DNA from: Tridacna crocea
Taxonomy: Eukaryota; Mollusca; Bivalvia; Cardiida; Cardiidae
Direction: 5' to 3'
Assembly: GCA_943736015.1 (NCBI GenBank)
Contig: OX031061.1
Span: 13,091,290-13,155,289 of the forward strand
DNA length: 64,000 nt
The notes beneath the pieces are model-generated. The model worked only from the letters and a program-made list of their open reading frames with translations, did not search any database and was not told the DNA's origin. This document shows, piece by piece, positions 36,369 through 58,551 of this stretch (positions are counted from its first letter, which is position 1; the number at the start of each line of letters is the position of its first letter). Both the position numbers and the translations under genes were made by a program.

Positions 36369-37513
36369 TAGCTCTACTGGCTTTCAGCCAGCAGAGCCTA
36401 TGTCATGGAGTGGTTTTCGGCATCCGTCTGTCTGCTAGTCTTTTTCTTGTTTACGCAAAAGTCTGCATTTGTTGCCAGATTTTCATGAAACTTGCACAGT
36501 TTGTTTATCTCATCAATAGCTTCAACCCTATTGATTTTGAGAAAAATCCAACAAACAGTATGGGAAAAGTAGCCATTTCAAGTTGAAAAATTCAAATTCT
36601 TTTTTACACGATAAAGTCTGCATTTGTTGTCAGATTTTTGTGAGACTTGCACAGTTTGTTTACCTCATCAATAGTTTCAACCCTACTGATTTTTGAGAAA
36701 AATCCAACATACAGTATGGGAAAAGAAACCATTTCAAGTTGAAAATTAACAATTCTTGTTTACGCTATAAAGTCTGCATTTCTTGTTAGACTTTCGTGAA
36801 ATTTGCACACTTTGTTTATCTTATCAGTAGCTTCTACCCTTTTGATTTTGAAAAAAATCCAATGAACAATATGGGAAAAAAAGCCAATTAAAGTTCAAAA
36901 TTTCACATTCTTGTTTACATGATTAGGTCAGCAGTTTTGGTTAGATTTTCACGAATCTTGCACAGCTGCTTTCATAAACCCTATTGAACCCTATTGATTT
37001 AAAAAAAATCTGACAATCAGTTTTGGAAATGTAAGCATTCAAATTTGAAAATTTCCAATTCTTGTTTTGGCAATGAAGTTTTGGCAATGAAGATCCAATT
37101 CTTTTGAGGATTCATCAAGGGATTGAATATTTAGTAAATTGTTCAGGAAAAGTAGCCATTTGATGACTTTGTATTGTTTTCTGATCAGCAAGTCCACATT
37201 ACTAGTCAAATTTCTTAGAAATTTACCAGGATTGTTTAATACTAGGCATAATGAAAGTTTGAAACACTATCAAATTTGCCAGGATTCCAAACATTTAGAT
37301 TTAAGAAATTTCACTTAAGTTTTTTTAGTTTCAGTTTGTTCAATTCAGCATGCCTACATATGCTGTCTTAATGGGTTCAAGCCCAGTTGCAAGAACACAT
37401 TTGTATGTTTTTTTTATCTTTTTGCATCATGAATTCATAAAGTGTGCTAGCAAAAGAAAAATTTAATTCTCTGCCAGTAGAGCATATTCAGGCCCTTCCA
37501 GGGTCTTCTAGTT
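36369..37513 (+). mobile_element. Family D satellite element, complete
   Basis: The 5' palindrome GCTCTACTGGC TTTCA GCCAGCAGAGC starts it. Next come CATCCGTCTGTCTGC and five to six monomers of about 165 bp with AAGTCTGCATTTGTTGCCAG, CTTGCACAGTTTGTTTA and AACCCTATTGATTTTGAG. The 3' end has the inverted arm GCCAGTAGAGC at 37473, a hairpin CCCTTCCAGGG, and TCTTCTAGTT. Confidence 0.85.
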
Positions 37514-37604
37514 CATTAATGTATTCCAATTGATTGACATAATTTTATGAAACTTCATCATTCTATTGGTTAACCTAAGCCAATAAACCAGTGAGTCTTC
37601 ACTT

Positions 37605-38395
37605 TTTATTAGCTCACCTGAATGAGCTATTGTGATAGTAAACTATTGTGATAGTGCTGTGTCCGTCATGCGTCGTGCATCATCCGTCGTCAACTTTTAC
37701 CTTGTGTACGCTCTAGAAGCCACATTTTTCGTCTGATACTCATGAAACTTGGTCAGAATGTTTGCCTTGATGAAATCTAGGGCGACTTCAAAATTCGATC
37801 ATGTTGGGTTAAAATCTAGGTCACTAAGTCAAATATTAGAAAAAACATTGTTTAGGCTATAGAGGCCACATTTTCAGTCCAATACTCATGAAATATGGTC
37901 AGAATGTTTGCCTTGATAACGTCTCGGACTAATTTAAAAATGGGTTATGTAGGGTGTAAAACTAGGTCACTAGGTCAAATCTAAGGAAAACCTTGTGTAT
38001 GCGATGGAAGCCACATTTTCAGCCCCATACTCATGAAACTTGGTCAGAGTGTTTCGGGCAAGTTCGAAAATGGGTCATGTTGGGTAAAAACTATTCTGAT
38101 AGTGCTGTGTCCGGCGTCCGTCGTGCGTCATTCGTCATCAACTTTTACCTTGTGTACGCTCTAAAGGCCACATTTTTCGTCTGATACTCATGAAACTTGG
38201 TCAGAATGTTTGCCTCGATGAAATCTCGGACGAGTTTGAAATTGGGTCATGTCAGGTATAAAAAACTTGGTCACTAGGTCAAATCTAGAGCCCACATTTT
38301 CAGTACGATACTCATGAAAGTTGGTCAGAATGTTTGCTTTGATGATATCTCAGACGAGATCGAAAATCAGTCATGTCGGGTCAAAAACTAGAATA
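37605..38395 (+). mobile_element. Type 4 satellite element, 5' end only
   Basis: 5' end TTAGCTCACCTGAATGAGCT, GTGTCCGTCATGCGTCG microsatellite, then type 4 monomers. A second copy of the 5' unit (GTGCTGTGTCCGGCGTCCGT) lies inside at about 38105. No 3' hairpin; it stops near 38390. Confidence 0.75.
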
Positions 38396-38830
38396 ACAAA
38401 CATGTAATTATTTTCCATATTATGTCTTCTTTGGACGCTGTATTTGAAGCTTCGTCTGTGTATTTCCGGTGTGTAAATGAGTGAGTTGCTCACACAAAAA
38501 TAGATCATGCTTCCCGTCGGTGTCAACCTAGGCTCTAGCAAATCTCAATTTTCTCGTGTTGTCAGATGGTTTTCGACTACTTGGGTTTTATGAATGAAAG
38601 TTAAAAGGCTTTGGGGGTATAAGGATGATTTTTTTTGTATATTTGTAAAATTTTCATCCCGAAATCTGAAGGGCCACCTTTAATATGATTATGGAATAGT
38701 TCATGGTTTTTAACTTGTAAGTTTTCTTACCTTGACCTGGGATTGGTATTACATCATAATTTCAAAGAATGGCCCCTAATATTGTTGTTGTTCACTGGAT
38801 AGTTTACACCTCTTCAAATTTTATTTGTTA
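38395..38830. other. Unassigned, no supported gene
   Basis: Single-copy within this window, with no tandem structure and no exon with paired sites. A stretch with better CpG content (TTCGTCTGTGTATTTCCGG, GCTTCCCGTCGGTGTCAACC) may be a fragment of another repeat. Confidence 0.3.
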
Positions 38831-38831
38831 T

Positions 38832-39145
38832 ACCCCTGGAAAAGGAATATTTTCAAGGGTATACTGAAATCAGCCTGTCTGTGGGTGTGTCTGTCTGTAC
38901 ATGTGTCCGTCTGTACACAAGGTACTAGTATTTTTCTGTTTGGAACTCTTCCAACACTTTTCCTTCAATTGTATTGAAACTTTGCACGTAATTATGTTGA
39001 TCATATAATGAAAATTTGCGAGACGCAATTTTCAAGTGTCAACTCTTCCTGGTTGAGGAATTATCTCCCCTTGAACTTGACACTTTTTTTCTGTCAAAGC
39101 GCTTCGGGGGTACTAAGCCACATTCAGTGGCAGCTCCAGTTTGTA
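38832..39145 (+). mobile_element. Family F element with TATACCC palindrome
   Basis: The 5' end GTTATACCCCTGGAAAAG pairs with TTTTCAAGGGTATACTG. Then come TGTCTGTCTGTAC microsatellite and one core unit (AACTCTTCCTGGTTGAGGAA, CCCCTTGAACTTGACAC). It ends CCACATTCAGTGGCAGCTCC, a CCAC...GTGG hairpin. A second copy at 63520-64000 carries a MITE. Confidence 0.65.
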
Positions 39146-39239
39146 CATGTATATGTTTGAAAACCTCATTACCATAGATTTGGTAAGAAGATCAGAAAGG
39201 ACATTGTAATGGCAAAGTTTTTTGTAACCACTTTCATTC

Positions 39240-39300
39240 CACAGAAATCTGTGTCTGTCTGTCTTTGTCTTTCTGACTGTCTGTCTGTATATGTCTTTGT
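39240..39300 (+). repeat. TGTC/TCTG microsatellite
   Basis: TGTGTCTGTCTGTCTTTGTC and further CTGTCTGTCTG, just upstream of the exon candidate at 39359. Confidence 0.7.
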
Positions 39301-39358
39301 TTTTATATTAGCAGATAATTTGTGTCTTTTATGAAATTTGTTTTTTTCTATTTGCCAG

Positions 39359-39423
39359 CAAATGAATTTAAAAGGGAGTTGATTTTCAGATATTCATTAC
39401 AAGCTCATATAGCACTTTGCTGA
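39359..39423 (+). CDS. Possible terminal exon
   Basis: A long pyrimidine tract (TTTGTTTTTTTCTATTTGCCAG) is followed by two bases and 20 codons (NEFKRELIFRYSLQAHIALC), then TGA. The two leading bases complete the codon left open by 25659 or 30975. A consensus-looking GTAAGTG follows just after the stop, so an alternative reading of the exon cannot be excluded. Phase plus acceptor are the evidence. Confidence 0.3.
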
Positions 39424-39789
39424 GCAGTAAGTGGCACAGAGTTTGAACTTGTATTTCAAGGCATTCTGGTTCAATCCATGATGGCCACATGGCCTTGTAT
39501 GTTGACATAGACGTGCTAGGCTCTTGCTCAGTTCTGGATAATCCTTGAGAAACATAAATGAGATAGTGACTTGTCTTCATAAGGTTGTTGGTAGAAAAAC
39601 TGTGAATGACATTTCATTGAGAGACACCACACATTCATATGTTTGTAAGGTTTCCTGAAATAGAGTAAGCGTTTGTCAGTTCTGTCAAAAAAGAAATCTA
39701 TATGGCTGGCTTAAATGATAATATAAAAGAATATTTCATTTAAAAATTTAAAATTTACACCACACTTTTTAATGTATGGAACTGGCTTA

Positions 39790-39905
39790 ACCCTTAAGTT
39801 TCTAAGCACTACCGACTGACCTTTTGCGGACTATGTAGATCAAGATCAGACTGAACAGAACATGCAGTCTGTTTTTGCATCTACACTGTCTGATACGGGA
39901 ATATC
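39790..39905. repeat. Fragment with GATCAAGATCAGACTG motif
   Basis: TTAACCCTTAAGTTTCTAAG followed by GTAGATCAAGATCAGACTGA and TTTTGCATCTACACTGTC, which make an imperfect hairpin. Related text at 44010-44170 (GTAGATCAAGGTCATGC, CAATCTATACTGTC) and fragments at 3965 and 4868. Likely another TTAA-type MITE, ends worn. Confidence 0.5.
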
Positions 39906-39957
39906 TGTCATTAAAAAAAAACCAAAATACCTTTCTAAAAGCACAATTTGGGTTTGT

Positions 39958-41365
39958 GGCTCACCTGAGCATTAAGTGCAAATGGTGAGTTATTGTGATT
40001 GTGCTCTTTTCCGGCATCCGTTGTGCGTCGTCAGCTGTCAACTTTTACGTTGTGTACGCACTACAGGCCACATTTTCTGTCCAATACTCCTGAAAGTTAG
40101 TAAGAATATTTGCCTTGATTATAATTATCCGACAAGTGTGAAAATGGGTCAGGTTGGGAAAAAATTAGGTCACCAAGTCAATCATAGAAAAACTTTGTGC
40201 ACACTCTAGAGGCCATATTTTCAGTTCAATGCTCTTGAAAGTTGGTCAGAATGTTTGTCTTGATGATATTTTGGATGAGTTATGGCCATGTTGCGTCAAA
40301 AGCTAAGTCACTATGTCAAATCTTAGAAAAACCTTGTGTACACTGTAGAGGCCACATTTTCAGTCCAGTACACTTGAAATTTGGTCAAAATATTTGTCTT
40401 GATGAAATCAGAAAGGAGATTAAAAATGGGCCATGTTGGGTCAAAAACTAGGTCACTAAGTCAAATCTTTGAAAAAACGCTCCACATCTTCTATCTGGTA
40501 CTCCTTAAAGTTGGTCAGAATCTTTGTCAGGATAATTTTGCATATGAGTTTAAAAATGGGCCATGTCAGGTCAAAAGCTAGGTCGCCACATCAGATCTTA
40601 CAAAAACCTTGTGTACACTGTAGCGGCCACGTTTTCATTCCAGTGTTCTTCAGAGTTGGTCAGAAAGTTTGTAATGATGATAGCTTGGATGAGTTTGAAA
40701 CTAGGTCATGTCAGGTCAAAAAGTAGGTCACTGGGTGAAATCTTTGAAAAACCTTGTGTATGCTCTAGAGGCAACATAGTTAGTCCAGTTTGTTGAAATT
40801 TGGTCACAATAAGACTAGTCTGAAAATGAGTCATTTTGGATAGAACATAGGTCACTAGGTCAAATCAGGGAAAAACCTTTTGTACTCGCTAGAGCTTACA
40901 TTTTCAGTCCAATGCTCTTTAAACTTTGTCAGAATACATGTATTTGTCTTTATTTTATCTTGCATGAGTTTGGAAATGGGTCACATTGATCTAAACTAGG
41001 TCACAAGGTTTTAATCCTTGAAAAACCTTGTGTATGCTCTAGAAGCCACATTTTCAGTCCAATAATCTTGGAACTTGCTTAGAATGTTTGACTTGATACA
41101 CCCTACATGTTACATTTTCTTTCAGATATTCATACTTTGTCAGAATGTAGGTCTGGATAATTTCTACATGTCAAGTAGACCGCTGAGACAAATTCTAGAA
41201 AAGGATTGTGTGCACTCTGGAGGCTGTATTTCTAAGTCCAGTAGTAATTAATGTTTGTCAGAATGTTTGTCTTAATATCTCTTAAGAGATTGGAAATGGG
41301 TCATGTTTGATCAAGAGGCACATGTGAGTAACTTCTAGGCAGTCATGACCTGCTTGTTTATTATT
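39958..41365 (+). mobile_element. Type 4 satellite element, plus strand
   Basis: 5' end GGCTCACCTGAGCATTAAGT / GCAAATGGTGAGTTATTG, microsatellite GTTGTGCGTCGTC, then eight or nine diverged type 4 monomers. The 3' end is eroded (ACATGTGAGTAAC...CATGACCTGCTTGTTTA near 41325-41362). Confidence 0.8.
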
Positions 41366-41375
41366 GGCTTGATTT

Positions 41376-43288
41376 TTAGCTCACCTTAGCACAAAATGCT
41401 AAAGGTGAGCTATTGTGATCGCCCAATGTCCGGCATCAGTCGTCTGTAGTTGGTCAACAATTTCTTTAAACATCTTCTCCTCCTAAACCACTGGGCCAAT
41501 CTTCATGAAACTTGACAGGAATGTTCCTTGGGTAAAGCTCTACCAAAATTGTTAAAAGAATTTAATTCCACGCATAACTCTGGTTGCCATGGCAACAAAA
41601 CAAAACAAAACAAAAAAAAAAAAAACAAACTCTTTAAAATCGTCTCCTCTGAAACAAGAAGGTGTAGAGCTTTGATATTTGGTATGTAGCATCTCCTAAT
41701 GGACCTCTACCAAGATTATTCAAATTATGCCCCTAGGGTCAAAACTGGCCCAGCCCCAGGGGATAACGAGTTGGAGTATAGGAACAAAGGAGGAAAATTT
41801 TAAAAATCTTCTCCTCTGAAACTTGGAGGCGTAGAGCTTTGATATTTGGTACATAGCATCCCCTAGTGGACCTCTACCAAGTTTGTTCAAATTATATTCT
41901 TTGGGTCAAAACTAGCTCCACCCCAGGGGTCACAAGTTTGAGCATAGGAACAAAGAAGGACCTCTACCAAGATTGTTCAAATTATGCCCCTGGGGTCAAA
42001 ACTGGCCCCGCCCCGGGGGATAACGAGTTTGAGCATAGGAACAAAGAAGGAAAACTTTAAAAATCTTCTCCTCTGACACTTGAAGCTGTAGAGCTTTGAT
42101 ATTTAGTATGTGGCATCTCCTAGTAGACCTCTACCAAGTTTGGTCAAATTATGCCCCTGGTTCAAAACTGGCCCCACCCCAGGGGTCACAAGTTTGAGCA
42201 TAGGAACAAAGAAGGTAAACTTTAAAACTCTTCTCCTCTGAAATTTGAAGGTGTAGAGCTTTGATATTTAGTATATGGCATCTCCTAGTGGACCTCTACC
42301 AAGTTTGTTCAAATTATGTCCCTGGGGTCAAAACTGGCCCCATCCCAGGCGTCACAAATTTGAGCATAGGAACAAAGAAAGAAATCTTTAAAATTCTTTT
42401 CCTCAGAAACTATAAAATGTAGAGCTTTGATATTGGGTCTGTTGCATCTCCTAGTGGACCTCTACCAAGTTTATTCAAATGATGTCCCTAGGGTCAAAAC
42501 TGGTCCCGCCCTGGAGGTCACAAGTTCCAACATTGGAACAATGAAAGAAAATTTTAAAATTCTTCTTCTCTAAAACTAGAAGGCATACAGCTATGATATT
42601 TGGCATGTAGCAATTCCTAGTGGACCTCTACCAAGTTTGTTCATATAATGCCCTTGGGGTCAAAACTGGCCCTGCCCTGGGGAAGTCACAAGTTCGAACA
42701 TAGCAACAAAGAAGGAAAACTTTAGAAATCTTTTCTGAAACTTGAAGGTGCAGAGCTTTGATATTTGGTATGCAGAATATTCTAGTGGATCTCTACCAAG
42801 TTTGGTCATATGATGTCCCTGGCGTCAAAACTGGCCATGCCCCGAGGTCACAGATTCGAACATAGGAAGGAAGAAGGAAAATTTTAAATTTCTCTTTCTT
42901 TTGAACAGGAAGGTGTAGAGCTTTGATATTTGGTGTGTAGCATCTTTGAGTGGACCTCTACCAAGTTTGTTCCAAGGATGCTGCTTGGTTAAAACTGACC
43001 CAGCCCCTGGGACCAGAAGTTCGAACATAGGACAAAGAAGGAAAATTTAAAATTCTTCTTTGAAATTGGAAGGTGTAGAGCTTTGATATTGGATTGCCCT
43101 ATGTCCGGCATCTGTTGCCCATCAACAATTTCTTTCAACATCTTCTCCTAACCCACTGGGCCAATCTTGATGAAACTTGGCAGGGATGTTCCTTGAGTGA
43201 AGCTTTACCAAAGTTGCTTATAGAATTGAATTTCACTCATAAGCTATAGTCTAAGGTGAGCGTTTCAGGGCCAATGGCCCTCTTGTTT
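41376..43288 (+). mobile_element. Type 1 satellite element, complete
   Basis: 5' palindrome AGCTCACCTTAGCAC / GTGCT-like AATGCTAAAGGTGAGCT. The head has GGTTGCCATGGCAACA and an A-rich run. About nine type 1 monomers follow. A second, headless copy of the 5' unit (TCAACAATTTCTTTCAACAT) at about 43090 precedes the 3' end. The 3' end is AAGGTGAGCG, hairpin GGGCCAATGGCCC, CTCTTGTTT. Confidence 0.88.
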
Positions 43289-43437
43289 TTTTCACTTTTA
43301 AAGCAGAAATAGAGTTAAAAGGATGAAAGGATGGCAAGATTCTTTAGCAACTAATTATTGTAAAAAGTTTTCTACATTGAATGGTTCATGAAAAATTGGA
43401 AAAAAAGAAAAGCAGATTACAGGGAAAGCATAGTATC

Positions 43438-43925
43438 TGTTGATTGATTGATTGATTGATTGATTGTATGGTGTGAAATGCTGTTTTCAACATTATTTCA
43501 ATTATATCAGGATGGCCAGTGCATCTATCCATGCTTTCCTTGAATTTTTTTTACCATTGATACTCCATACAAGTCACTGTATATGATCTCAAGAAAGAGA
43601 TAGAGCATATAAGAATCATCTTTGACAGAAAATGATTGATTGGTATTTATCACCGTTTTCAACATTATTTCAGTTATATCCCAGTGGCCAGTGCACCCAA
43701 CTGTGCTTTCCTTGAATTTCTTTTATGAATACTTTGCCCAATATCATTTCCAAGCTGCTGTCTACTTTTCCACATCACCAAACAATGGTCAGCAGTGAGA
43801 GAGGAATGAATCCTGTCACAATGACTATCATCAATCCTCAGAAGGAAATTGGCCGAGCTGGGGATCAAATCTGCGATCCCTTTTTCTCAAGTCTTGTATG
43901 CTAATAACTGAGCTATTGGGCTTGA
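43438..43925 (-). mobile_element. tRNA-derived SINE with (TCAA)n tail, two overlapping copies
   Basis: Minus orientation. A tRNA-like head lies at about 43840-43915 (plus-strand text CTGGGGATCAAATCTGCGAT is an inverted B box; ACTGAGCTATTGGG an inverted A box). The body contains AACATTATTTCAGTTATATC. The body and tail occur twice, at 43438-43560 (with GATTGATTGATTGATTGATT) and 43625-43735. Confidence 0.6.
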
Positions 43926-44159
43926 ACTAAAGATGCCATCTCTCATCTGTTAACAGAGTGTCTACTACTTGCTAGTTCTGCATAAATAGCCTCCATGCCT
44001 ACAAGATACATGCATACTTAAACCTTAATGACTTCACGACTACAATTGCCTTTGCTGTTAGTGTAGATCAAGGTCATGCTGCACAAAATGTGTAGCCTGA
44101 TCTTCAATCTATACTGTCCGCTTTGTGGAAACACTGTAGACAGATCAATCATGAAATTG

Positions 44160-44690
44160 CAGTTATTTGCGTTGTGTCTGTGGTATACTGATCTATCCTG
44201 CAGATAAGTGTAAAGGTACGAGTATAGCTTGTGTTTGTATAAAGGGAATTCATACTGCATTGCTAGCATTTGTAGTGACATGGTAGAGCGTTGGCTTTGA
44301 GACCGGCAGGTTCATGGTTATTTCTTAGAACTGTTACATTGGCTTTCATTGTAAAAACCCCACTTGTTTGACAATCAGGGTAACAGAAATTGAAGGATAA
44401 GTGGATGATTCATCATAAGGCGGGGGGGGTATGTAATATACTGGTCTATCCAATAGATAGATGTAAAGGTATAGCTTGTGTTGGTATAAGGGGACATTTA
44501 TACTGCCTTGCTATAGATCTAGCTTTTGTAGTGCCTTGATCGAGCGTTCGCCTTAAGAGCCAGAGGTTCAGGGTTCAAAGCCCACCAGATACGGCTATTT
44601 CTTAGACCTGTTTAAAATCTACAGGATGAAAACATCTGATAGGTTTATTTGGAACTTTAAGGGTAACTGGTTGATATTGTGTCAGTTGTA
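44160..44690 (+). mobile_element. tRNA-like SINE pair, plus strand
   Basis: Two related copies of about 260 bp. Each has GATAGATGTAAAGGTATAGC-like leader and ATACTGCCTTGCTA. Then comes a tRNA-like part with A box TCGAGCGTTCGCCTTAAGAG (copy 2) or TAGAGCGTTGGCTTTGAGAC (copy 1) and B box GGTTCAAAGCCC (copy 2). Confidence 0.5.
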
Positions 44691-44820
44691 TGTATAGAAA
44701 CCATTAAAAAAAAATATATATAGAGCAGGCATTTTGAATGTTTAGAAATATAGTACACCATAATTTATAATTTAAGGAATAAAATTTATTGTCTATGTAA
44801 CAGGTGGTGAAAAATATATC

Positions 44821-44897
44821 GCGGCTCAACCGGGATTCGAACCCGGGGTCTCGGGAATACCGTTCCTGCACTCTAACCAACTGAGCTACCGAACCAC
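44821..44897 (-). tRNA. tRNA-like cassette 1 (degraded)
   Basis: The minus strand folds as a cloverleaf. Acceptor GGTTCGG pairs with TTGAGCC, D stem GCTC/GAGT, T arm CCGGG-TTCGAAT-CCCGG. The anticodon stem has one mismatch. The anticodon loop is ACGGTAT, with C instead of T at position 33. It lies in a repeat bounded by TGTAGC...GTTACA-type ends, so a mobile tRNA-like sequence is more likely than a working gene. Confidence 0.4.
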
Positions 44898-45093
44898 ATG
44901 TCGATACGGTCGCACGGTATATCACCAAATACCTGTACCCTGCTACATGTACCCCCTCCAAATTTAGAATTTATCCCAAATTCTGGAGACAGAGAAGCAT
45001 TGTGAAATGTTCTCGAGATGCCTAAGCAGTAGCCATCCACATCGTTGGTTATTTACGGAGGGCGCCAAATGTAACAGGTGGTGAAAAATGTAT

Positions 45094-45170
45094 CGCGGCT
45101 CGACCGGGATTCGAACCCAGGGTCTCAGGAATACCGTTCCTGGACTCTAACCAACTGAGCTACCGAGCCA
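45094..45170 (-). tRNA. tRNA-like cassette 2 (better preserved)
   Basis: Same cassette 273 bp further on. All stems pair: acceptor GGCTCGG/TCGAGCC, D stem 4 bp, anticodon stem CAGGA/TCCTG, T stem CTGGG/CCCGG with loop TTCGAAT. The loop ACGGTAT would read GGT (threonine) but has C at position 33, which is abnormal. Flanked by the same GTAACAGGTGGTGAAAAATG and CGGCTACAT repeat ends. Confidence 0.5.
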
Positions 45171-45352
45171 CATGTCGATACAGCCGCACGATATATCAAC
45201 AAATAGCTGTGCCCGGCTACATTTATAAGATTTATTCAAGTTTTATTTTATTTCTGTGATGCTGTTCAATTATTTTCAAAAAATCTAAAGGTTAACTAAA
45301 ACCCTGTAATTCACCATTGAATTTATAATTCACAAGTGAATTTTGTTACTTT

Positions 45353-46752
45353 ATTATACGCCCGTCGAAGACGGGACGTATTATGGGATCACCCATGGCG
45401 GGCGGGCATCCAGGCGGGCGGGCGGCGTCCAGTTCTTTGTCCGGAGCATATCTCCAAAACTATACTAGCTAGGGTTATGAAATTTCATGGGTGGATACAT
45501 CTCATCGAGGGGGAGTGCAGTGCACAAGAATCATAACTCTTGCTCGCTTAATTTTTCAGTTATTGCCCTTTGTTGTTTTTCATACTTGAATTTTGTCCGG
45601 AGCATATCTCCAAAACTATAGTAGCTAGGGTTCTGAAATTTCATGGGTGGATAGATCTCATCAAGGGGGAGTGCAGTGCACAAGAATCATAACTCTTGCT
45701 TGCTTAATTTTTGAGTTATTGCCCTTTGTTGTTTTTCATACTTGAATTTTGTCCAGAGCATATCTCCAAAACTATACTAGCTAGGGTTATGAATTTTCAT
45801 GGGTGGAAAGATCTCATTGACGGGGAGTGCAGTGCACAAGAATTATAACTCTTGCTCGCTTAATTTTTGAGTTATTGCCCTTTGTTGTTTTTCATACTTG
45901 AATTTTGTCCGGAGCATATCTCCAAAACTATACTAGCTAGGGTTATGAAATTTCATGGCTGGATAGATCTCATTGACGGGGAGTGCAGTGCACAAGAATC
46001 ATAACTCTTGCTTGCTTAATTTTTCAGTTATTGTCCTTTGTTTTTTTTTCATACTTGAATTTTGTCCGGAGCATATCTTCAAAACTATAGTAGCTAGGGT
46101 TATGAAATTTCATGGGTGGATAGATCTCACCGAGGGGGAGTGCAGTGCACAGGAATCATAACTCTTGCTTGCTTAATTTTTGAGTTATTGCCCTTTGTCG
46201 TTTTTCATACTTGAATTTTGTCCGGAGCATATCTCCAAAACTATACTAGCTAGGGTTATGAAATTTATGGGTGGATAGATCTCATCGAGGGAGAGTGCAG
46301 TGCTCAGGAATCATAACTCTTGCTCGCTTATTTTTGAGTTATTGCCCATTGTTGTTTTTCATACTTGAATTATGTCCGGAGCATATCTCCAAAACTATAC
46401 TAGCTAGGGTTATGAAATTTCATGGCTGGATAGATCTTACCGAGGGTGTGTGCAGTGCATAAGAATCATAACTCTTGCTTGCTTAATTTTTGAGTTATTG
46501 CCCTTTGTCGTTCATACTTGATTTTTGTACGGAGCATATCTCCAAAACTATAGTAGCTAGGGTTATGAAATTTCATGGGTGGATAGATCTCATCCATGGG
46601 GAGTGCAGTGCACAGGAATCACAACTCTTGCTTGCTTTATTTTTGAGTTATTGCCCTTTGTTGTTTTTCATACTTGAATTTTGTCCGGTGCATGCCCCAC
46701 CTTTACAACTTGGGGTAAGACGGGCGTATCTTGCGACAATTTGCCGCTCTTG
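45353..46752 (+). mobile_element. Family C satellite element, complete
   Basis: 5' palindrome ATACGCCCGTC GAA GACGGGACGTAT, then GGCGGGCGGGC repeats. Eight monomers of 153-157 bp follow, starting at GTCCGG 45439, 45595, 45751, 45907, 46064, 46220, 46374 and 46527. Each contains GCATATCTCCAAAACTATAC and GGAGTGCAGTGCACAAGAAT. The 3' end has inverse arm GACGGGCGTAT, hairpin GCGAC-AATTT-GCCGC, and TCTTGTTTTT. Confidence 0.92.
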
Positions 46753-47029
46753 TTTTTGATATACCATGGATATTTATTAGAACATGAATTAATGTTCAGC
46801 AGGTAAACATCATGTATTTGATATAGTTAACATCACTGATGCAGTCTACACTTCAATGAACAATAAAAAACTGAAGTTTCATTTAATAGTAAATTTAGAT
46901 ATCTTGTTCCATACTATAAATATACATCAAGTCCCCCTTTTTCATGACATGTCTTTAAACAATCCCCCCCCCCCCAAAAAAAAAGTTATGGTCAGACTAT
47001 TATTCATAAGGAACATAATAAATGGTTGT

Positions 47030-47698: not shown

Positions 47699-47859
47699 AA
47701 TGAAATGCCAAGTCATGGAAAAATTGGGCTTAATGTTAGATTCCATCATGGATCAACAACAAAAAGGCCAGGTAAACATTTTTTAAGGCAAAATCACTTT
47801 TATTTCGGGCAAAATAAGTCTTTTTCAGCAAGGTATATCATTTCATCAAAAAGTCTTGT

Positions 47860-49103: not shown

Positions 49104-49136
49104 TTAAGGATGAAATTATATTTTCTTGACCTACAG

Positions 49137-49634
49137 AAATAGCACAACACCAACAACAATCTCTAAGCCAGATACACATGAGGGTGGCACAAAGCTAATA
49201 AACACATTGGTATTGAACCAAAGACCAGAACCTAAGGCAAGCACTCAGCCTTTACATCATGTACAAATACTTGAAACATTGCAAGAAAGGTCTCCTGCAA
49301 CTATCGCTACTTCAAGTCCTTCTTCGAAAACTAATTTAGCAGTCTCAGGTGATTCTGTTGATGGAGTCAAAAAGGCATCTGCTAACCAAGAAACAATTCA
49401 CTTAAGTGGCTTAAGTGATACAAATAGTGGATACAAAGATTCTACATTCAAAGATAAAGATACCAACAAGGATAATGTGCCAGACATGGAAAAAGTAGGA
49501 CACTATAGAGATGAAAAACCAACCAAAATGGATAAAATTGAGTTTAAAACGGATCCCGATGAAGTTGTGCAAAATGAAAAGCATGAAGACACTGTGATAG
49601 AAAGAGCCAAGGAAGGATACACTACTCCTATAGT
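49137..49634 (+). CDS. Internal exon of an unidentified gene (166 codons)
   Basis: Largest credible coding piece in the window. The 3' splice site ATTTTCTTGACCTACAG (ending 49136) is followed by one base and an uninterrupted frame to the donor AGT|GTATGT, leaving two bases. The protein is hydrophilic and low in complexity: Ser/Thr/Pro at first (NSTTPTTISKPDTHEGG), then Lys/Asp/Glu (KDSTFKDKDTNKDN), no membrane segment. This is typical of a disordered region. Entry and exit phases are equal (498 nt, a multiple of three). The next exon in phase is 55036-55242. Reading on past the donor would give a short hydrophobic tail and a stop at 49692, which could be an alternative end. Confidence 0.55.
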
Positions 49635-49639
49635 GTATG

Positions 49640-50345
49640 TTTCATGTTTTGTTGTTCATTTACATGTAATTCTATTTTTGACTGCCCTGTAGTCTGGAAT
49701 CTTTTGATACTGTGCTCTTTTTAAGCCTTTACCAAACAATACAAATGAAGTATTTCATCAGTATACATTTCTGATCAGTTGGATGAGGTTGGGTTGTTAG
49801 TGTTTAGAGGTGCTTATTGGATGAGACCAAAAATCGAATTGGATGGAAGCCTCTTTACTCATGCAATGAGAACTCGTCTGACCACATAGAAACTCTGACT
49901 GTTGTAATGGTCCTTTACATATATGTACCTCCCTTTATAACTTAAAAAAGAAAGAGATAGCTGCACATACATGAATCTGAGAATGGACAGAAAGAGCCTA
50001 AAACGAATACTTCGATGTAGTCTTTGATCATGATGATGCTGTACAAAGAGTGTACATGTGTGATACAGAATGAGTACAGAATTTATGTTTTTCTATTGCC
50101 TATCGTTATTTTAATGGTTTCTGCCATTTTTCAGTCTGTCTGTCCATCTGTCTGTTAGTCCATCTGGATGTCAGTCCATTAGTCTGTTTCTTGTTAACAG
50201 GATTAAGCCCACTGTTATTAGATTTTGCACAGTTTATATTATTTAATAGATTTAACCCTATTGATTTTGAAAGAAATCAAACAAATAGTAAGGGAAAGGT
50301 AGCCATTTCAACTTGAAATTTTAAATTTTTTGATTACCCTATTTA
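49640..50345. other. Intron-like DNA with a family D fragment
   Basis: 49640-50120 shows nothing recognisable. 50120-50330 is a family D fragment (TCTGTCTGTCCATCTGTC microsatellite, AGATTTTGCACAGTTTATAT, AACCCTATTGATTTTGAAAG) with no ends. Confidence 0.6.
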
Positions 50346-50346
50346 G

Positions 50347-50733
50347 TCTGTGAATCAAGTAAATGATGAACAATTTAATTTTATGATTTCTGAAGTTCAG
50401 TTAAAGGTGAATATTACATGCATCATCACTTTTGGTTGGAAAATCTTGTACACAGACAAGACCAACAACAATGGAAAAAAGCATGAGAATGAGAAAAGTT
50501 GCACTGCGATAAGTAAAGATGAGGCTGATTTTGGATATGTCACTGACTTACTTTACATATTAGTAAACATCTTGTATTCTAGAGTTAAAATTGAAGAGAT
50601 TTTGCAGTTCATGTTTATCATATGTAATAATAACAATTCTAACAATATTGTGAGTGGGGCAGTATTTGGAGACTTGGTTATTATTTGTTTACATTTGTAT
50701 CTTGAGTCACTCTGTATGACAAATAACTAGCAA
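50347..50733 (+). other. Exon-like open frame, not phased with its neighbours
   Basis: A good 3' splice site (TTTTTGATTACCCTATTTAG) starts an open frame to a stop at 50731-50733. Two parts look coding: SVNQVNDEQFNFMISEVQLK (50347-50406, followed by GGTGAA) and KTNNNGKKHENEKSCTAISK after TTGTACACAG at 50455. Neither enters in the phase required after 49634. It may be an exon of an alternative transcript, part of another gene, or chance. Confidence 0.2.
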
Positions 50734-50734
50734 A

Positions 50735-53125
50735 GGACTAGCATTCGCTTGTCTAAAACTGACAGCATGTAGATTGGAATGTGAGATTCTACATTTTCAG
50801 TTATCAGTAAAATAAATGACAAACAAGCATCCTGCAATGTCAACTTTAGCTTTTGTACTATTTATGGGTCTATGTTAACATATGCAGCTTGTTTTTTCAT
50901 GTGTTCATACATAGAAAGATAGCACTGTGCAGGCCCATTGGAGCGAAATTTTATTTGGTCCAGCCATTTAGGCAAGCGGCGAAGTCGCAAAGCCATGCTT
51001 CCCCGCAAAAATTTGAAAATAAGGGGCTCTCTGGTGCATTTTTTTAGGGTTTTTTTTAACACACTTTTTTCTAGCTGCCAATTCTCTGCAATGACCGAAA
51101 TACTGTTGAAAAGGACATAAAGCATCAAAACATTATAATCATTTCTGATGTCTTCTGATCTCTCGAAAGAATTTGTTTCATATCTTACAGCCGTGTACTC
51201 TTAAAGAAAATGTTTCTCAACAGGAACTGAAATTTTTGGCTTCATGTATACCCACACTATAATAGCGATTAAGTGTTAAATGTGTTTTTCATGGCTTGGT
51301 GGTTAAGCATTTTTTTCTTGTGGTGTCACCCATTAAATCTGTCTAACAAGCATGCGATTACGAATCAAAGCTTTATTTTCATCTCTGGACCAGTGCACAA
51401 ACAGGACGAAGTAAGTGTTGCAAAGCCTACGATCCAACATGCAACGCTTTTTTTGAAAGCATTTAAATTTGCAAATTGCAACGTCAAGACAGACAAACCC
51501 CAAAAAGAGGGTAATTGCGCTTTTGAACAGTAGGAGATAAATAATTAAACAAAAACAAATGCTACAAGATACATGATTCTGCAGAATAACAATTACTTGT
51601 AAATTATTTCTGTAAAAAGCAGTCATTTTTCCTAGGCATTACTTAGGCTGTGGAAATACATTTATTTGTGTCTCAAATATCTGCTGAGAACACCAGATTA
51701 TTGATACTTGTTATAACTAAAATGCAGTTTAAAACTTTAAGATGTTTCTTACAAGTATCAATAATCTGGTGTACATGTTATGATAGCGAGCCATTGTTTT
51801 GAGCGAAATCAAAGAACACTACACCTTTGCATCTAGTAGCAATATTTTCAAACATGTTTAGAAATGGATGCAATGTATTTCAGTTCTCAAAAAAACGAAT
51901 CTGATTGCTAGACATAGTTATTTGGCTATATCTGGAAGCGTATATCATTTTTGGCCAAAAATTTGGTCCGCCCATTTTTCATTTTCGGCCGTAAATTTGG
52001 TACGGCCATTGCCAGACCAGCCGGACCGCTTCCGACAGCCTTGTTTTGACATTTACAAGAAAAGAAGATTTAAAAAAGGTGTTGAGAAGGTAATCTAAGG
52101 TATGAACTATACAAAGTCTGTTGACTTGAGATAATTTATGCAGTATTCTACATTGTTATTGAACTGTAAGTTAAAAACTTTCAACCCACACTTCCAATTC
52201 AAATTTTTTTTTTTTAACATTATTTTGACCTTAGAATATGAAACACACAAAGAATTATTATGGAATCTGTTCCCTTGTATACATGTATCTTAACTGTGCA
52301 CATAGCCAATTGACAATTTTGTCACGCTTCACTAAACAATGGTATTTGTGTACAATGCTCCATTTTTATGTTGTAAATGCAGACCTGGCAAAAGTTTTAG
52401 CATTTGAATAAGTGCAAAGTTTGCCTCATGATAGCCAACTATAGCAGAGTTAAAGAGTCTCCTGTATTCTGTCCAGAAAAGCCTGAGATTAACATTTGAA
52501 ACCTATTGGGAAAATATCTGGATGTGCTGCCATTTATGACTTTGTCTGGTTGATTTTTTGTGCATTATCTATCATTCACAGGTTGTAGCTGAAGTTCATC
52601 CGAACGTGAAATGATTTTGATTGATTGAATTAATTTGATTATGTATTGCAGTTTAAAATTGCAAATTTACCATCCCTTGACCCATCCATCTTTAAGTCTT
52701 GAGCTGGATGTACTGTTCTCCCTACATAGAGAAAGTCATGCTATTGAAGACAATTCATCAAATCACTGGACTTGACCTAATTTCAATCATATATCATAAA
52801 GACAAACGTTGCGACCAAGCTTCATGAGTATCTGGCTGGAATATGGCATCGAGAGTGCACACAAGTTTTTTCTAAGATTTACCAGAGAAAAAGTAGGTCA
52901 CTAGGAACATCTAAGGAAAACCTTGTGTGCAATCGAGAGGCCACATTTTCAGCCCAATTCTCATGAAATTTTATCAGAATGTTTTTCATGATTATATTCA
53001 TGATAATATTGGACAAAAAATCTGTTTGTGTGATTCCATGGTTCATGTGAAAAGTTTCTGAAAAAATAATGCCTACTTATTTCACCTACAGCATCTTGGA
53101 CCAAAACCATAAACACAGATTTTTT
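50735..53125. other. Mostly unassigned intronic DNA with one perfect hairpin
   Basis: 50925-51050 (GGCCCATTGGAGCGAAATTT) and 51950-52040 (TTTGGTCCGCCCATTTTTC, GACCAGCCGGACCGC) look like fragments of further repeats. A perfect inverted repeat is at 51691-51771 (separate entry). 52840-52990 holds one type 4 monomer. A small exon-like frame ends GTTGAGAAG|GTAATC at 52089, without further support. Confidence 0.4.
51691..51771. other. Perfect 21-bp inverted repeat, 39-nt loop
   Basis: The left arm CACCAGATTATTGATACTTG plus T (51691-51711) is exactly complementary to 51751-51771. The total of 81 nt is the size of a microRNA precursor. Arms end sharply on both sides. It could also be the remains of a small inverted-repeat element. 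No seed match or expression can be judged here. Confidence 0.6.
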
Positions 53126-53126
53126 T

Positions 53127-54358
53127 ATGCTGCCCGAAGGGCGAGCATATAGTCGCCGCTTCATCTGTCCGTCCGTCCTTCCGTCCGTCCGAAGCCATTT
53201 GTCCACAACCCTTGGACCAAATTAGATGAAACTTCATATATTAACTCCTTAGGGTAAAGTGCCCAAGCACTTTTCCTGGTTTTTCACTTTGACCCTGTGT
53301 CATGGAAAAAGGGGGCTTAGTGCAAAATTGCAATTTTTTACTAATAACTCATTCAGTTTTTGTCAAAATATCATGAAACTTCATGGTTATATTGTTTACG
53401 GAAAGTTTCAGCATGTGCCATTGCTATTTTTAATCTAAGCGTTTTTTAAGTTGATGTTCTGTCATGGAAAAAGGGGGTTTCTTGCAAAATTCCAATTTTT
53501 ACTAATATCTCATTCAGTGTTGGTCAAGATTTCACTAAATTTCATGGTTATATTGTTTTTTCAAAGTTTCACCATGTGCTCTTGTTTCTTTATCTATGTG
53601 TTTTTCAATTTGACCCTCTGTCATGGAGAAAGGGGGTTTCTTGTAAAATGCCAAGGAAAAAGGGGCCTTAATTCAAAATTGCAATTTTTACTAATATCTC
53701 GTTCAGTTTTTGTCAAACTTTCACGAAACTTCATGGTTATATCTTGTTTTACAAGTTTCAGCATGTGCCCTTGTTATTTTCAATCTATGAATTATTAATG
53801 CGCAAATACCTCAATCCTGGCTTCTCAATTTGAGGCTGCATCACGGAAAAGGGGGACTTCATGGAAAAAATTGTTTTTCACTAGCATCTCCTACATCAGT
53901 GCACAAGACTTTATGAAATTCAAATTTGAACTTGTTGGAACGTTACCCAGGTACCTCTCTTCCGGTTTCTGAATTTCAGGCTGTGTCACAGAAAAAGGGG
54001 GCTTCATGTAAAAAATAGTTTTATGTAATATTTACTACATGACTGCTCAAAATTTTATGAAATTTCGAATTTTGATTTATTATTCAAAAATGGCATAAAC
54101 CACACACCTGTTGTATTTAATTCAATGATGCAATATTGTCTTATGGGAAAAGGGGACTTAAAGGGGGCTTAGTGGGCTTATTGTCCTCTACAAGTTTGTG
54201 TTGGCTATCACTAAGATAGTAATTGCCTTTTCTCTTCAATTTTTTGGGGGGCATGAACAAGTCCTTTTAGGATAAAAGAAGTGAATTTATATCAATTTCA
54301 TATATTTTATGACAAGCACTTGTTCGGGGAGCATAACCTGTCTCTGACGGCTCTTGTT
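53127..54358 (+). mobile_element. Type 5 satellite element, complete
   Basis: 5' palindrome TTATGCTGCCCGAA / GGGCGAGCAT, then GTCCGTCCGTCCTTCCGTCC. Monomers of about 170 bp follow with CATGGAAAAAGGGGGCTT, ATTTTTACTAATATCTCATT and TTCATGGTTATATTG. A 3' domain holds CTATCACTAAGATAG and GCATGAACAAGTCC. The 3' end has the inverse arm TTCGGGGAGCATAA (13 of 14 match the 5' arm), a hairpin TGTC-TCT-GACGG, and CTCTTGTTT. Confidence 0.88.
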
Positions 54359-54473
54359 TGTTAGGCCTAATTTGAAAAATACAACATAACGTTTTTGTGT
54401 CTACTGAAAAACGGAATACAGTTACATTAATTAAAGTGGCTTTCCGATAGGCCCATATGGTGTGATGTTTTAA

Positions 54474-54694
54474 CCCATTACCACTCAATCCCTACTTTTG
54501 ACGCCCCTGAGAAAGAAGCCTTTTGAAAACACTGTGGGAAAAGGAGAAAATGCTGGTAACCAGCATTTTCTCCTTTTCCCACAGTGTTTTCTACCCTTTT
54601 CAGAACAAATTTCTATTTTTCAGTCACCTTTATTTTGTCGTCTGCAAATGCTTTCAATTTGGACCAGTCTAAAATATTCTTGTGTGGTAATGAG
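54474..54694. mobile_element. piggyBac-like palindromic MITE, copy 5
   Basis: 221 bp flanked by TTAA (54470-54473, 54695-54698). Ends CCCATTACCACTCAATC and GTGTGGTAATGAG. Central palindrome CTGTGGGAAAAGGAGAAAAT / ATTTTCTCCTTTTCCCACAG with centre GCTGGTAACCAGC. Reverse orientation relative to copies 2-4. Confidence 0.92.
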
Positions 54695-55035
54695 TTAAGA
54701 GAGACAGCAAAAATGCTTATGAGGGACTTAAGGTTGGTTGACAATGATTGTCGCACTTAAAGTGCTTTAAGATAATGGGTCCAGTGCTTTTAGGACTCTA
54801 AGAAAGTGGGAATAGGAAAACATGGTGAGAAAAGTAAGAAATCCTGGTTGTTTTTATTTTTTCCTTTTCTTTTGATAATGTATCCTTCACTCTAACAGAC
54901 AAGTGTCATCAACTGATCCACATTTGGTTAGTCATCTGCAAGCACTTTTAACCAAGAAAAATGTAGAATTTCCTTGTTGTTTGTTAAAGAAGAATGTATA
55001 TGCAATTATGAGCAATATCCTAATTTTACTTGCAG

Positions 55036-55242
55036 TGAAGAGGAATATGAGGATAATTCTAAACGATCGTACAAACAGTACAGAAGGTACTCTGGAGAAG
55101 ATCACCTAAGATCCAGACAAACAGGAAGAGAACCAAATACTGATAACAATCAACAAGATCCTCTACCTAAAGGTAAAACTGAAACCACTCTGGAAAAGAA
55201 AAGAAATGATGCAGATAAGACAGGCTTCACTAATGGAATACG
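55036..55242 (+). CDS. Penultimate exon of the 49.1 kb gene
   Basis: The 3' splice site CCTAATTTTACTTGCAG (ending 55035) opens 207 nt without stops: one base, 68 codons, two bases. The donor is ACG|GTAAAG. It is strongly hydrophilic (EEEYEDNSKRSYKQYRRYSG, then Asn/Gln- and Lys/Glu-rich), matching the style of the 49.1 kb exon. The two bases left at 49634 complete its first codon. A competing acceptor (CACTCTAACAG, 54898) would give another frame that ends at 55109; I prefer 55035 because it continues through a good donor to the terminal exon. Confidence 0.5.
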
Positions 55243-55406
55243 GTAAAGTTAACTTTTTTTTTTATAGTTATAATTATCATACACTTTTCTCATAAGTCTG
55301 ATTTTACACTTTTACGGAACAAATCAAAGTTTAAATGACCTTGAGAAAGACAACTTTGGAAAACATATTGGGAAGTTTTTGGACCAGTATTTTCTATTTA
55401 TTTCAG

Positions 55407-55434
55407 AGATGAAATTAATAATGTTAAGGCATAA
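55407..55434 (+). CDS. Terminal exon of the 49.1 kb gene
   Basis: The 3' splice site TTTTCTATTTATTTCAG (ending 55406) is followed by one base that completes the CG left at 55242. Eight codons (DEINNVKA) and TAA at 55432-55434 follow. Three exons in consecutive matching phase ending in a stop is the main evidence for this gene. Intron of 164 bp. No canonical polyadenylation signal seen nearby. Confidence 0.45.
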
Positions 55435-56950
55435 TTGGTCGTTCTACAAACCATTCCAAGTTTGGCATGTGTGTGAAATTTTGCCATCTGGTAGCTAATT
55501 CAGCCCTTTTCCAAGCATTATTATTGGCAAAACTGTGAGGAAGGAGGTTTGTTGCGTCAAAGACTAGTCCCATCACTTGAGCTACATTTAATTTGCAACC
55601 TGCAAATACTATTTAGGCAGACAAGTCTAATTATTTTTTAGTCGGTAAAGAGTTGTGAGGGCCGTTTTGAAAGTTCTGATAATGGATGCGGGTTTGTAAA
55701 ACTGCTCTTTTCTACTCAAAATTGCCTATTCTAAGAGGATTACCCAATGTCAATGGGTAGGTCTCTCTATCATATCCAAGAAGAACACAATGTAGATGTT
55801 CACATTTCAGTTCACTGCTCATGATTTTGGTCTTAATTACCAGAGTTGTTTGTTTTTGGTAAAATTTCAGACCAGTTTAAAAAAAGGGGTCACACTTAGA
55901 CAACGAGTAAATGTTTTTGATGGTCATTTTTAGGCCAGGGAATCCCTCTCAAGGGATTCCCTTGCCTATAGGGATCGTAAGCTGCCTATTCAGACAAAAA
56001 TGTTGGACGGTGTGTCCACTCTATATCGCTGAGTCCGCCAAAACAACTAGTTTCCCAAGTATATACAGAGATTGCTTATCACACGGTGTGAATGCTTTCC
56101 TTTCCTCAAAGCTTTCATCTGCAAAACGCCATTGAATTTAATAACTGACGAGTGTGTGTTTTTTATCCCGTTTTTGTCATTAACACTGACCTAATAAAGG
56201 CGTAACCTAATAAACTTAGCTTTATCAGGCAGTTGTGTATTCTTACGCGCTATACGGTTAATATCTATAACGCTCTCTCTTGCACTCCGGATCATTCACA
56301 TTCAGGTATGGTGAGATTAACGAACGACAACTCTGCTCGGACTTTGTCTATAACGTTGTGTTGACATTTGAACATTATGTGTCACAAAATGCGTCTCCGC
56401 TAAAAGCGATTGTAAATAAAGCAAACTACATATAGAATATTGGCCCGTGTTATGTTTATCACTTTTTCTTATGTATATCGACTAAATCTTGGGTGCTTCA
56501 GCGGAATGCTGAAGAAATCGGTCCCTGGAGAAATCGTCCCCAAACTGCTTGGCCCGTGTTATATTTATCACCATGGAGAAATCGGCCCCTGGAGACGATT
56601 TCTTTGGTGAAATCGTCCCCAAATAAAATTTTAGAAAAATCGACCCCAACATCAAATTTCATCCATATCGTTAATCAAGTTGTCTATAAAAATATTTTTG
56701 AAATTTCGTTGTCTTTAGTATGTATTATGTGTATTAGTTACCTTTATCTCAGAGTTATTTGGTAGTTTTGTCATTGTTTATACTGCCTATTTCACACTGA
56801 TAGGATGTATTTCACACCTTTTACACCTGTCACAAATAGATTACACCTGTGTGATTCTTAAAAATTTTTTTGATTGACTTTGATTTGAAACCAAATAAAT
56901 GCTTATAATTTTTTTCAGTAGTTGTTCGCTTGTCATTTAATGTATCCTTT
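55435..56950. other. 3' flank with short hairpins and AAATCGNCCCC motifs
   Basis: An inverted repeat GGGAATCCCT CTCA AGGGATTCCC lies at 55937-55962, extended to GGC/GCC. GAAATCG(G/T)(C/T)CCC occurs at least four times at 56512-56655, once inverted as GACGATTTC. GGCCCGTGTTAT occurs at 56441 and 56550. No splice-supported exon found. Confidence 0.45.
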
Positions 56951-56953
56951 TTT

Positions 56954-58551
56954 TAGCTCACCTGAGCACAACGTGCTCAAGGGGAGCTTTTAGGATCACC
57001 CGGTGTCCGTCGTCCGTCGTCCGTCGTGCGTCGTCAACAATTCTTTAAACATCAACTCCTCCTAAACCGCTGGGCGGATTTGGACCAAACTTGGCAGGAA
57101 TGTTCCTTGGGAGGTCCTCTTTAAAAATTGTTCACAGAATTTGATTCCATCAAAAACTCTGGTTGCCATGGCAACCAAATGGAATTTTTTAGCAAATTCT
57201 TTAAAAATCTTCTGCTCTGAAACTGCTGGTTGGATTTTAAAATAATTTCACAGATATGTTCCTTGGGTGACCCTTTTCAAAAATTGTTCGTGAAATTTTG
57301 ATTCGTCAAAAAATGTGGCTCTGGTGAATGGGGGCTTCTTGCACTATACAGAAATGAAGGAATTCTTTAAAAATCTTCTCCTCTGAAACCGCTATTCGGA
57401 TTTTGAAATAATTTCACAGATATGTTCCTTGGTTGACCCTTTTCAAAAATTGTTCGTGAAATTTTGATTGGTCAAAAAATGTGGCTCTGGTGAATGGGGG
57501 CTTCTTGCACTGTACAGCAATGAAGGAATTCTTAAAAAATCTTCTTCTCTGAAACCGCTGGTCAGATTTTGAAATAATTTCACAGAGATGTTCATTGGGT
57601 GACCCTTTTCAAAAATTGTTCGCGAAATTTTGATTGGTCGAGAAACATGGCTCTGGTGAATGGGGGCTACTTGCACTATACAGAAATGAAGAAATTCTTA
57701 AAAATTCTTCTTCTCTGAAACCGCTGGCCAGATTTTAAAATAATTTCACACAGATGTTCCTTGGGTGACCCTTTTTAAAAATTGTTTGCGAAATTTTGAT
57801 CCGTCAAGAAACATGGCTCTGGTGAATGGGGGCTTCTTGCACTATACAGAAATGAAGAAATTCTTAAAAATTCTTCTTCTCTGAAACCGCTGGCCAGATT
57901 TTGAAATAATTTCACAGAGATATTCCTTGGGTGACCCTTTTCTAAAATTGTTCGTGAAATTTTGATTGGCCAAGAAACATGGCTCTAGTGAATGGGGGCT
58001 ACTTGCACTAGATGGAAATGAAGAAATTCTTGAAAATTCTTCTTCTCTGAAACCCGTGGTCAGATTTTAAAATAATCTGACAGAGATGTTCCTTTGGTAA
58101 CCCTTTCCAAAAGCTGTACATATAATTTTGATCCGTCAAGAAACATGGCTCTTGTGAATGGGGGCTACTTGCACTATACGGACATGATGAAATTCTTTAA
58201 AATTTTCTTTCTCTGAAACCCCTGGTCAGATTTTGAAATAATTTCAGAGAGATGTTCCTTGGGTGACCCTTTTCAAAACTTGTTCGTAAATTTTGATCCA
58301 TCAAGAAACATGGCTCTCGTGGATGGGGGTTACTTGCTCTTATACAGAAATGAAGAATTCTTAAAAATTCTTCTTTTTGAAACTGATGGTCAGATTTCGA
58401 AATGACTTTTACAGGTGACCTTTTGAAAACTGCTTGGCAAAATTATAAATTTGGTTCCAATGTTTCAACGCTAAAAAAGAAAAAAAAAAAAAGACTATGG
58501 TCATCTCAAAAATTCAGGTGAGCGATCCAGGGCCATCTTGGCCCTCTTGTT
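56954..58551 (+). mobile_element. Type 2 satellite element, complete
   Basis: 5' palindrome AGCTCACCTGAGCACAACGT / GTGCTCAAGGGGAGC, then GTCCGTCGTCCGTCGTCCGT. Head GGTTGCCATGGCAACC and seven to eight type 2 monomers of about 165 bp follow. The 3' end has TTCAGGTGAGCGATCCAG, hairpin GGGCCATCTTGGCCC and CTCTTGTTTTT. Best-preserved type 2 copy; it can serve as reference for the others. Confidence 0.93.

Follow-up and report, generated by a model that had tools for sequence, protein, structure and literature searches.

What mobilizes short, satellite-carrying elements in a bivalve genome, and how many families of them coexist, are questions raised by a 64,000-nucleotide stretch of Tridacna crocea DNA (contig OX031061.1, positions 13,091,290 to 13,155,289; hereafter the window), in which arrays of tandem monomers lie between conserved ends in elements of group A (types 1, 2, and 4), family C, family D, and type 5. 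These elements are very probably non-autonomous Helentrons (HINEs) that are copied in trans and inserted into T-runs, with group A probably supplied by a Helentron that shares the 3′ terminus of type 4. Direct support comes from ends found in many copies, insertion into T-runs, length steps of whole monomers, and changing letters within a hairpin that is kept. In addition, the type-4 3′ terminus stands behind two Rep loci, one of which, on contig C1, has both a Rep match and an endonuclease domain.

Window elements were located by direct reading, Tandem Repeats Finder, and motif scans, and the genome searched comprised 1.05 Gb in 31 contigs. From 5′ to 3′, an element consists of a palindrome with an arm, a GTCC-type microsatellite, tandem monomers, an inverse copy of the arm, a 3′ hairpin, and a terminal CTCTTG or TCTAG followed by host Ts (Table 1), and additional genomic copies display this plan for type 2, C, D, and type 5. 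Subterminal inverted repeats and a palindrome or stem-loop near the 3′ terminus, which are both used to recognize HINEs, are present in these elements. A first-pass annotation of this DNA had proposed such a common architecture, and the arms, 3′ hairpins, and terminal hexamers all lie at the positions that it described; in the terminal TCTTGTT or TCTAGTT that it read, the terminal letters are real, but the final TT is at least partly host T-run.

The association of the hairpin with the terminus was measured by requiring a perfect stem of 5–8 bp with a loop of 3–7, G-U pairs allowed, ending exactly at the heptamer. A stem directly precedes TCTTGTT at 9 of 42 window sites, compared with 1 of 875 window sites for 40 other permutations of TCTTGTT, while the 41st permutation, CTTGTTT (10 of 38 sites with a stem), is the TCTTGTT set displaced by one base. 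TCTAGTT is directly preceded by a stem at 1 of 21 window sites. The stems vary in letters yet pair (GGGCCA/TGGCCC, GGACCA/TGGTCC, GCGACA/TGCCGC with 5 of 6 pairs formed, AGGCCCT/AGGGCCT, and CCGTC/GACGG), and between the C stem and a C-like end at 21300 one C-G pair is replaced by T-A. An extra hairpin type, GCAC.../...GGTGC, adjoins TCTTGTT at window positions 62590–62606 and near position 4573 (−) of the fetched locus L013, and perhaps marks one more terminal family.

For type 2, 20 loci were fetched and 11 joined-flank queries were made, three of which were inspected closely; results for L015 and L019, whose flanks had been mispaired within arrays, were discarded. Joined flanks of L022, L010, and L023 align through the junction to uninterrupted paralogues, for example at 94.5% over 200 bp for L022. 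L023 has five Ts ahead of AGCTC and one T ahead of CTCC, and its empty site has four Ts; a gain of two Ts with T and then C on the right does not fit a TT duplication, which is thereby ruled out at this type-2 locus. Type-2 copies L009, L012, and L018 (both flanks) and L017 (left flank) share their host flanks although they lie on different contigs, with a shared target repeat and co-amplification as the alternatives.

The window 3′ regions of C, D, and type 5 are repeated across the genome, with 2380, 1773, and 1988 first-look candidates, respectively, of which the best 40 were scored each time. The copies studied were chosen as the closest matches to these regions, and the agreement of their 3′ ends is partly due to this selection. 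For C, both ends were present in 29 of 30 loci, the window copy among them. The T-run before ATACG is five in 24 loci, 6–8 in three, and two in two (for comparison, 0.37% of positions across the fetched loci close a T-run of exactly five), and the T-run after CTCTTG is two in 19 loci and longer in 10, so that at least two Ts follow in 29 of 29. Among the best of the 2380 candidates, 31 places, counting the window copy itself, match its last 235 bp without a difference, and 15 full-size copies, likewise taken from the best matches, differ from their majority by 0.57–1.50%; such well-preserved copies suit tests for recent movement. Lengths of C copies (788, 924, 1080–1088, 1211–1272, 1375–1432, and 1555–1560 bp) step by about one monomer, with minor shifts in the 5′ part. 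Joined-flank queries gave spanning matches for 14 of 29 C loci, those of L030 and L040 being weak, and ten of the empty sites lay in one palindromic repeat and the others, one each, in a monomer of C (L031), in arrays of type 4 (L038) and type 5 (L047), and in a different repeat (L035). The palindromic repeat, TGCTGGTAACCAGCATTTTCTCCTTTTCCCACA, found at window positions 54496–54668 and in many loci, was the target of these ten of the 14 C copies and also of some type-2 copies.

Similarly, all 12 fetched copies of D and its window copy end in TCTAG followed by 2–5 Ts, and all 10 fetched copies of type 5 and its window copy end in CTCTTG followed by 2–9 Ts. In this comparison, the 5′ end of L078 is doubtful. 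Usable spanning matches were obtained for the window copy of D only (1 of 5 queries; 78% over 156 bp, weak), the match of D_L069 being its own locus and left out of the count, and for 2 of 10 type-5 queries (L073, 83% over 166 bp; L080, 78% over 135 bp). The joined flanks of the type-4 and type-1 window copies, sliced one base short at the 3′ end, gave no spanning match. Across the empty sites of type 2, C, D, and type 5, no duplication beyond TT was found. The target is T-rich, with Ts on either side and without target modification, as expected of HINEs, with TT duplication excluded only at L023. Insertion into T-runs without the duplication typical of DDE transposons, as proposed in the first-pass annotation, is upheld by these copies and paralogous empty sites, which likewise bear out its assignment of the satellite-carrying elements to HINEs.

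The same evidence bears on whether the elements are tandem-repeat-carrying miniature inverted-repeat transposable elements (MITEs) mobilized by a DDE transposase. They are short and non-coding in appearance, with inverted repeats close to either end, and bivalve elements built in this way were formerly named MITEs, as the available text of PMC7492417 records. This origin is nevertheless extremely improbable, given that the empty sites examined had no target-site duplication of fixed length (nothing beyond TT, and not even TT at L023). The ends are also asymmetric, with a 3′ hairpin, and a Rep/endonuclease locus has the same 3′ terminus. A canonical Helitron, with 5′ TC, 3′ CTRR, and insertion between A and T, was rejected, the elements having a terminal CTCTTG or TCTAG and T-run targets instead.

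The number of families proved smaller than the "at least six unrelated" of the first-pass annotation. When 60-bp ends were aligned and compared with 200 shuffles (the 3′ slices of types 4 and 1 being one base short), the 5′ ends of types 1, 2, and 4 scored 66–74 among themselves against a shuffle maximum of 24, and their 3′ ends 43–64 against a maximum of 28. Judged by terminal sequence, the families are four, namely A (types 1, 2, and 4), C, D, and type 5, because types 1, 2, and 4 have both ends in common. Comparisons of A, C, D, and type 5 ends with one another fell mostly inside the shuffle range; a few sat at the edge of the 200 shuffles (5′ ends of type 4 and C, 2/200, and of type 1 and C, 3/200; 3′ ends of D and type 2 and of type 1 and C, 1/200 each), and for this reason the four families may be distantly akin. 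The monomers of types 1 and 4 have a 37-bp box in common (0 of 100 shuffles as high), those of type 2 and D scored 30, marginally over the 100-shuffle maximum of 28, and the remaining 13 of 15 monomer pairs gave no score above 100 shuffles. Together, the end and monomer alignments against shuffles rule out six unrelated families. The motif TGAAACTT (at most one mismatch) reaches at least 0.5 per monomer in five of the six array types (0 of 400 permutations), namely types 2, 4, C, and D and type 5, in which the element strand has roughly one occurrence for each monomer. The motif was picked post hoc, however, and neither the de novo nor the mixed-strand control sets it apart.

Four families with one kind of 3′ end invite the explanation that C, D, and type 5 acquired their ends separately, by convergence on what one transposase requires, a hairpin with CTCTTG or TCTAG. 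This would account for end comparisons that lie mostly within the shuffles while the hairpin and terminal letters are common to all, yet a separate Helentron lineage for each family predicts the same, and some comparisons reach the shuffle edge, which makes convergence quite improbable. The four families more probably derive from distinct Helentron lineages with one end requirement. The convergence on one 3′ signal claimed in the first-pass annotation is thus not demonstrated, as the signal is equally well accounted for if related transposases have preserved an end structure. Along different lines, a few group A endonuclease Helentrons might serve A, C, D, and type 5 by recognizing the shape of the 3′ end and not its letters, which we consider unlikely; if true, recognition of a hairpin adjoining CTTG or CTAG would let one machinery spread satellite arrays of unrelated origin.

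On the model of the known family, a rolling-circle transposase provided in trans would copy the HINEs and a single strand would be inserted into T-runs. Copying would start at the 5′ arm and terminate at the 3′ inverse arm and hairpin, and the satellite monomers would be passengers whose number alters by whole units. The supplier for group A would be a Rep/helicase/endonuclease Helentron of this genome with the type-4 3′ terminus.

A genome-wide profile search for PF14214 gave 32 matches (42 of 42 candidates scored), some of which are two pieces of one locus, and nine lie inside open frames of at least 1896 aa. At C1:69631529-69639253, a 2575-aa open frame, both ends of which were read, owes its Rep assignment to the genome-wide profile match (PF14214, 100.8 bits, above cut-off). 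Its N-terminal part matches PF04843 (38 bits) and its C-terminus the endonuclease PF03372 (E 6.3e-6, 26.6 bits, cut-off 24.5), with helicase matches below cut-off ahead of the endonuclease. A type-4 3′ terminus lies on the same strand at C1:69641247-69641321, 2.07 kb past the stop of this frame, and matches window positions 58477–58554 at 92.3% over 78 bp. Just upstream of the frame, a HINE-like 5′ box is accompanied by a GTCTGTC-type repeat (L084, 131–200), perhaps as part of a nested element.

For the first 1200 bp of the fetched locus with this terminus (L083), the 30 similarity matches shown of 31 all begin at position 948 or later, and among the matches listed, the 947 bp ahead of the type-4 end have no HINE similarity. 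With L083:1-1022 as the query, C13:11803938-11805026 matches (86% and 81%), 3′ end included, and sits 6.4 kb downstream of a Rep match (C13:11798066-11798644) in a frame of just 490 aa. C15:27555303-27555936 matches at 94% over positions 388–1022, without a nearby Rep match; C1:55582662-55583549 matches without the 3′ end; and 37 places match only from positions 948–957 to the end (last 66–75 bp). Such a pattern would be expected of an element that has a 3′ box in common with its HINEs. As far as these sequences allow, the C1 Rep/endonuclease locus is a likely autonomous partner for group A only, and we infer that the type-4 3′ end belongs to its coding element. Such a partner would link dispersed satellite DNA to a defined machinery.

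The type-4 end behind the C1 Rep frame could instead be the remnant of an unrelated HINE, the true partner being another element. Group A ends are frequent, a matching 5′ end was not found upstream of the C1 frame, and behind other Rep frames, the C13 segment left out, no end was seen at two of the three places that had been predicted or scanned. Against a remnant stand the 947 bp without HINE similarity among the matches listed and the recurrence of the whole segment, end included, behind the C13 Rep match and at C15, and we regard a remnant as rather unlikely.

A group A 3′ end stands behind three of the six Rep loci examined, the third belonging to a 2534-aa frame on C10. From the C1 spacing, an end was predicted 5,689 bp past the end of the Rep match, and a type-1 3′ end lies at C10:26048645, 116 bp off the predicted place. 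A chance match in 800 bp on one strand has a probability of ~0.2% using 5809 first-look subfamily candidates and of ~10% using the window density of group A ends, and the C10 end is weak evidence that is supportive only. The OTU-Rep-PIF1 element on C16 and C17 (L081 and L082), in which OTU, DUF6570, Rep, and PIF1 but no endonuclease were found, was rejected as a partner, having no hairpin-TCTTGT or TCTAGT end in 10 kb, and none of the four arms searched was found in L081. The two copies are 99.8% identical across all 10 kb fetched, so that their ends lie outside this stretch or the whole is a segmental copy. Their second frame, of 322–361 aa, has no clear Pfam match. A separate PIF1-like query, against 299,451 bases, led nowhere, with a best E of 3.1. 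The locus C1:73580687 was likewise rejected as a partner, as 800 bp at the predicted place held no such end.

Several observations weigh against HINEs supplied in this way. The 5′ terminus of the C1 element was not found in the 2.2 kb upstream of the first ATG, and the helicase core and the 1.05 kb directly past the stop lie outside the sequence read. The L083 query ended at the terminus, and homology may therefore run on past it. Group A 3′ ends are common (7–9 on the + strand of the window), and chance could therefore place one behind a Rep gene. At C10, the end could be that of a plain HINE remnant, since bases 140–300 of the fetched piece have matches at 39 further places and the 3′ region there has a 44-bp stretch 79.5% like the type-1 monomer. 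C1:73580687 counts here too, as do C16 and C17, with no such end in ~3.9 kb behind the frame. Filled C sites hold about two more Ts than empty ones, and in C alone the added Ts could either belong to the element or reflect a TT duplication. Finally, comparison with autonomous Helentron ends of the same species, suggested in the first-pass annotation, yielded the likely partner of group A and, among the Rep loci examined, none for C, D, or type 5.

Elements of this kind are already known from oysters, and the new part is the likely partner of one group. According to the available text of Vojvoda Zeljko et al. (2020; PMC7492417), Crassostrea gigas has 11 coexisting Cg_HINEs built in this way, which fall into related and unrelated groups, some unlike in every module, with T-rich targets, empty sites, and no target-site duplication; the coexistence of many families, presented as new in the first-pass annotation, had thus been published. 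By these descriptions, the elements share with Cg_HINEs a 5′ subterminal inverted repeat (subTIR), a complementary inverted repeat, a GTCC-type microsatellite, monomers of 140–180 bp, and a 3′ subTIR with palindrome, as well as several families, some with common ends but different monomers; they differ in having a likely autonomous partner for one group. In that account, no relation to Cg_HINEs could be established for ten oyster autonomous elements whose Rep motif is of the Helentron type (PMC7492417), and since the oyster partner was left unidentified there, a coding locus and HINEs sharing a 3′ terminus make the question testable. Among the titles and abstract openings listed from the open-access literature, none names an autonomous partner in bivalves, and nothing relevant was listed for CTCTTGTT together with "Helitron".

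HINE-Mo and DINE-1, as described in the accessible parts of Thomas et al. (2014; PMC4067079), are flanked on either side by two or more Ts and leave the target unmodified, and the present elements resemble them in subTIRs, a 3′ stem-loop, flanking Ts, and a tie to Rep/helicase/endonuclease elements. In contrast to HINE-Mo and DINE-1, which have other hosts, the hairpin here lies 0–1 nt ahead of the last six bases and every window family has satellite arrays. The oyster Pearl elements (CvA, CvE, and CvG), which the sources available re-class as Helentrons (PMC7492417; PMC11136912), are similar by description in that conserved ends enclose a short array of ~160-bp repeats. Helitron2 is described as having a palindrome at either end, terminal inverted repeats that are asymmetric, and no endonuclease (PMC4067079); the first two features recur here, whereas the likely C1 partner carries an endonuclease, and L081/L082 are nearer to Helitron2 but without such ends.

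Table 1. Satellite-carrying elements and partial elements in the window, with their terminal features.
Feature	Position (strand)	5′ palindrome or arm / inverse arm	Monomer	3′ hairpin	Terminus	Remark
Composite 3′ region	21295..21412 (+)					C-like 3′ end, then type-1 3′ end 108 bp further
HINE family D	36370..37511 (+)	5′ palindrome AGCTCTACTGGC / inverse arm GCCAGTAGAGC	155 bp	AGGCCCT/AGGGTCT	TCTAG	
Type 2, 5′ part	37611..38394 (+)		145 bp			No recognized 3′ end of its own
Type 2, 5′ part	39958..41330 (+)		145 bp			No recognized 3′ end of its own
HINE group A type 1	41378..43285 (+)	GCTCACCTTA / TAAGGTGAGC	167 bp	GGGCC/GGCCC	CTCTTG	
HINE family C	45356..46752 (+)	ATACGCCCGTC / GACGGGCGTAT	156 bp	GCGACA/TGCCGC (one mismatch)	CTCTTG	
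HINE family type 5 (E)	53126..54356 (+)	TATGCTGCCCGAA / TTCGGGGAGCATA	~161 bp	CCTGTC/GACGG	CTCTTG	
HINE group A type 4	56955..58549 (+)	GCTCACCTGA / TCAGGTGAGC	166 bp	GGGCCA/TGGCCC	CTCTTG	Last ~75 bp common to coding locus L083

A second composite 3′ region, at 11251–11129 (−), has a C-like 3′ end ~91 bp ahead of a type-1 3′ end; this and the composite in Table 1 look as though read-through or a nested insertion had been copied afterward, and their identical order suggests one event that spread. Two type-4-like 5′ ends at 16971 and 17075 have the same orientation and lie 104 bp apart. Two type-1 elements with similar flanking bases (26233–28197 and 31549–33177), whose 5′ ends are 5316 bp and 3′ ends 4980 bp apart, appear as if duplicated and later altered by two monomers. 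Two tRNA-family matches at 44822–44895 and 45096–45169 (−), of 47.8 and 54.7 bits, sit within two similar stretches of ~270 bp and may represent either a tRNA gene that was duplicated or a repeat derived from a tRNA.

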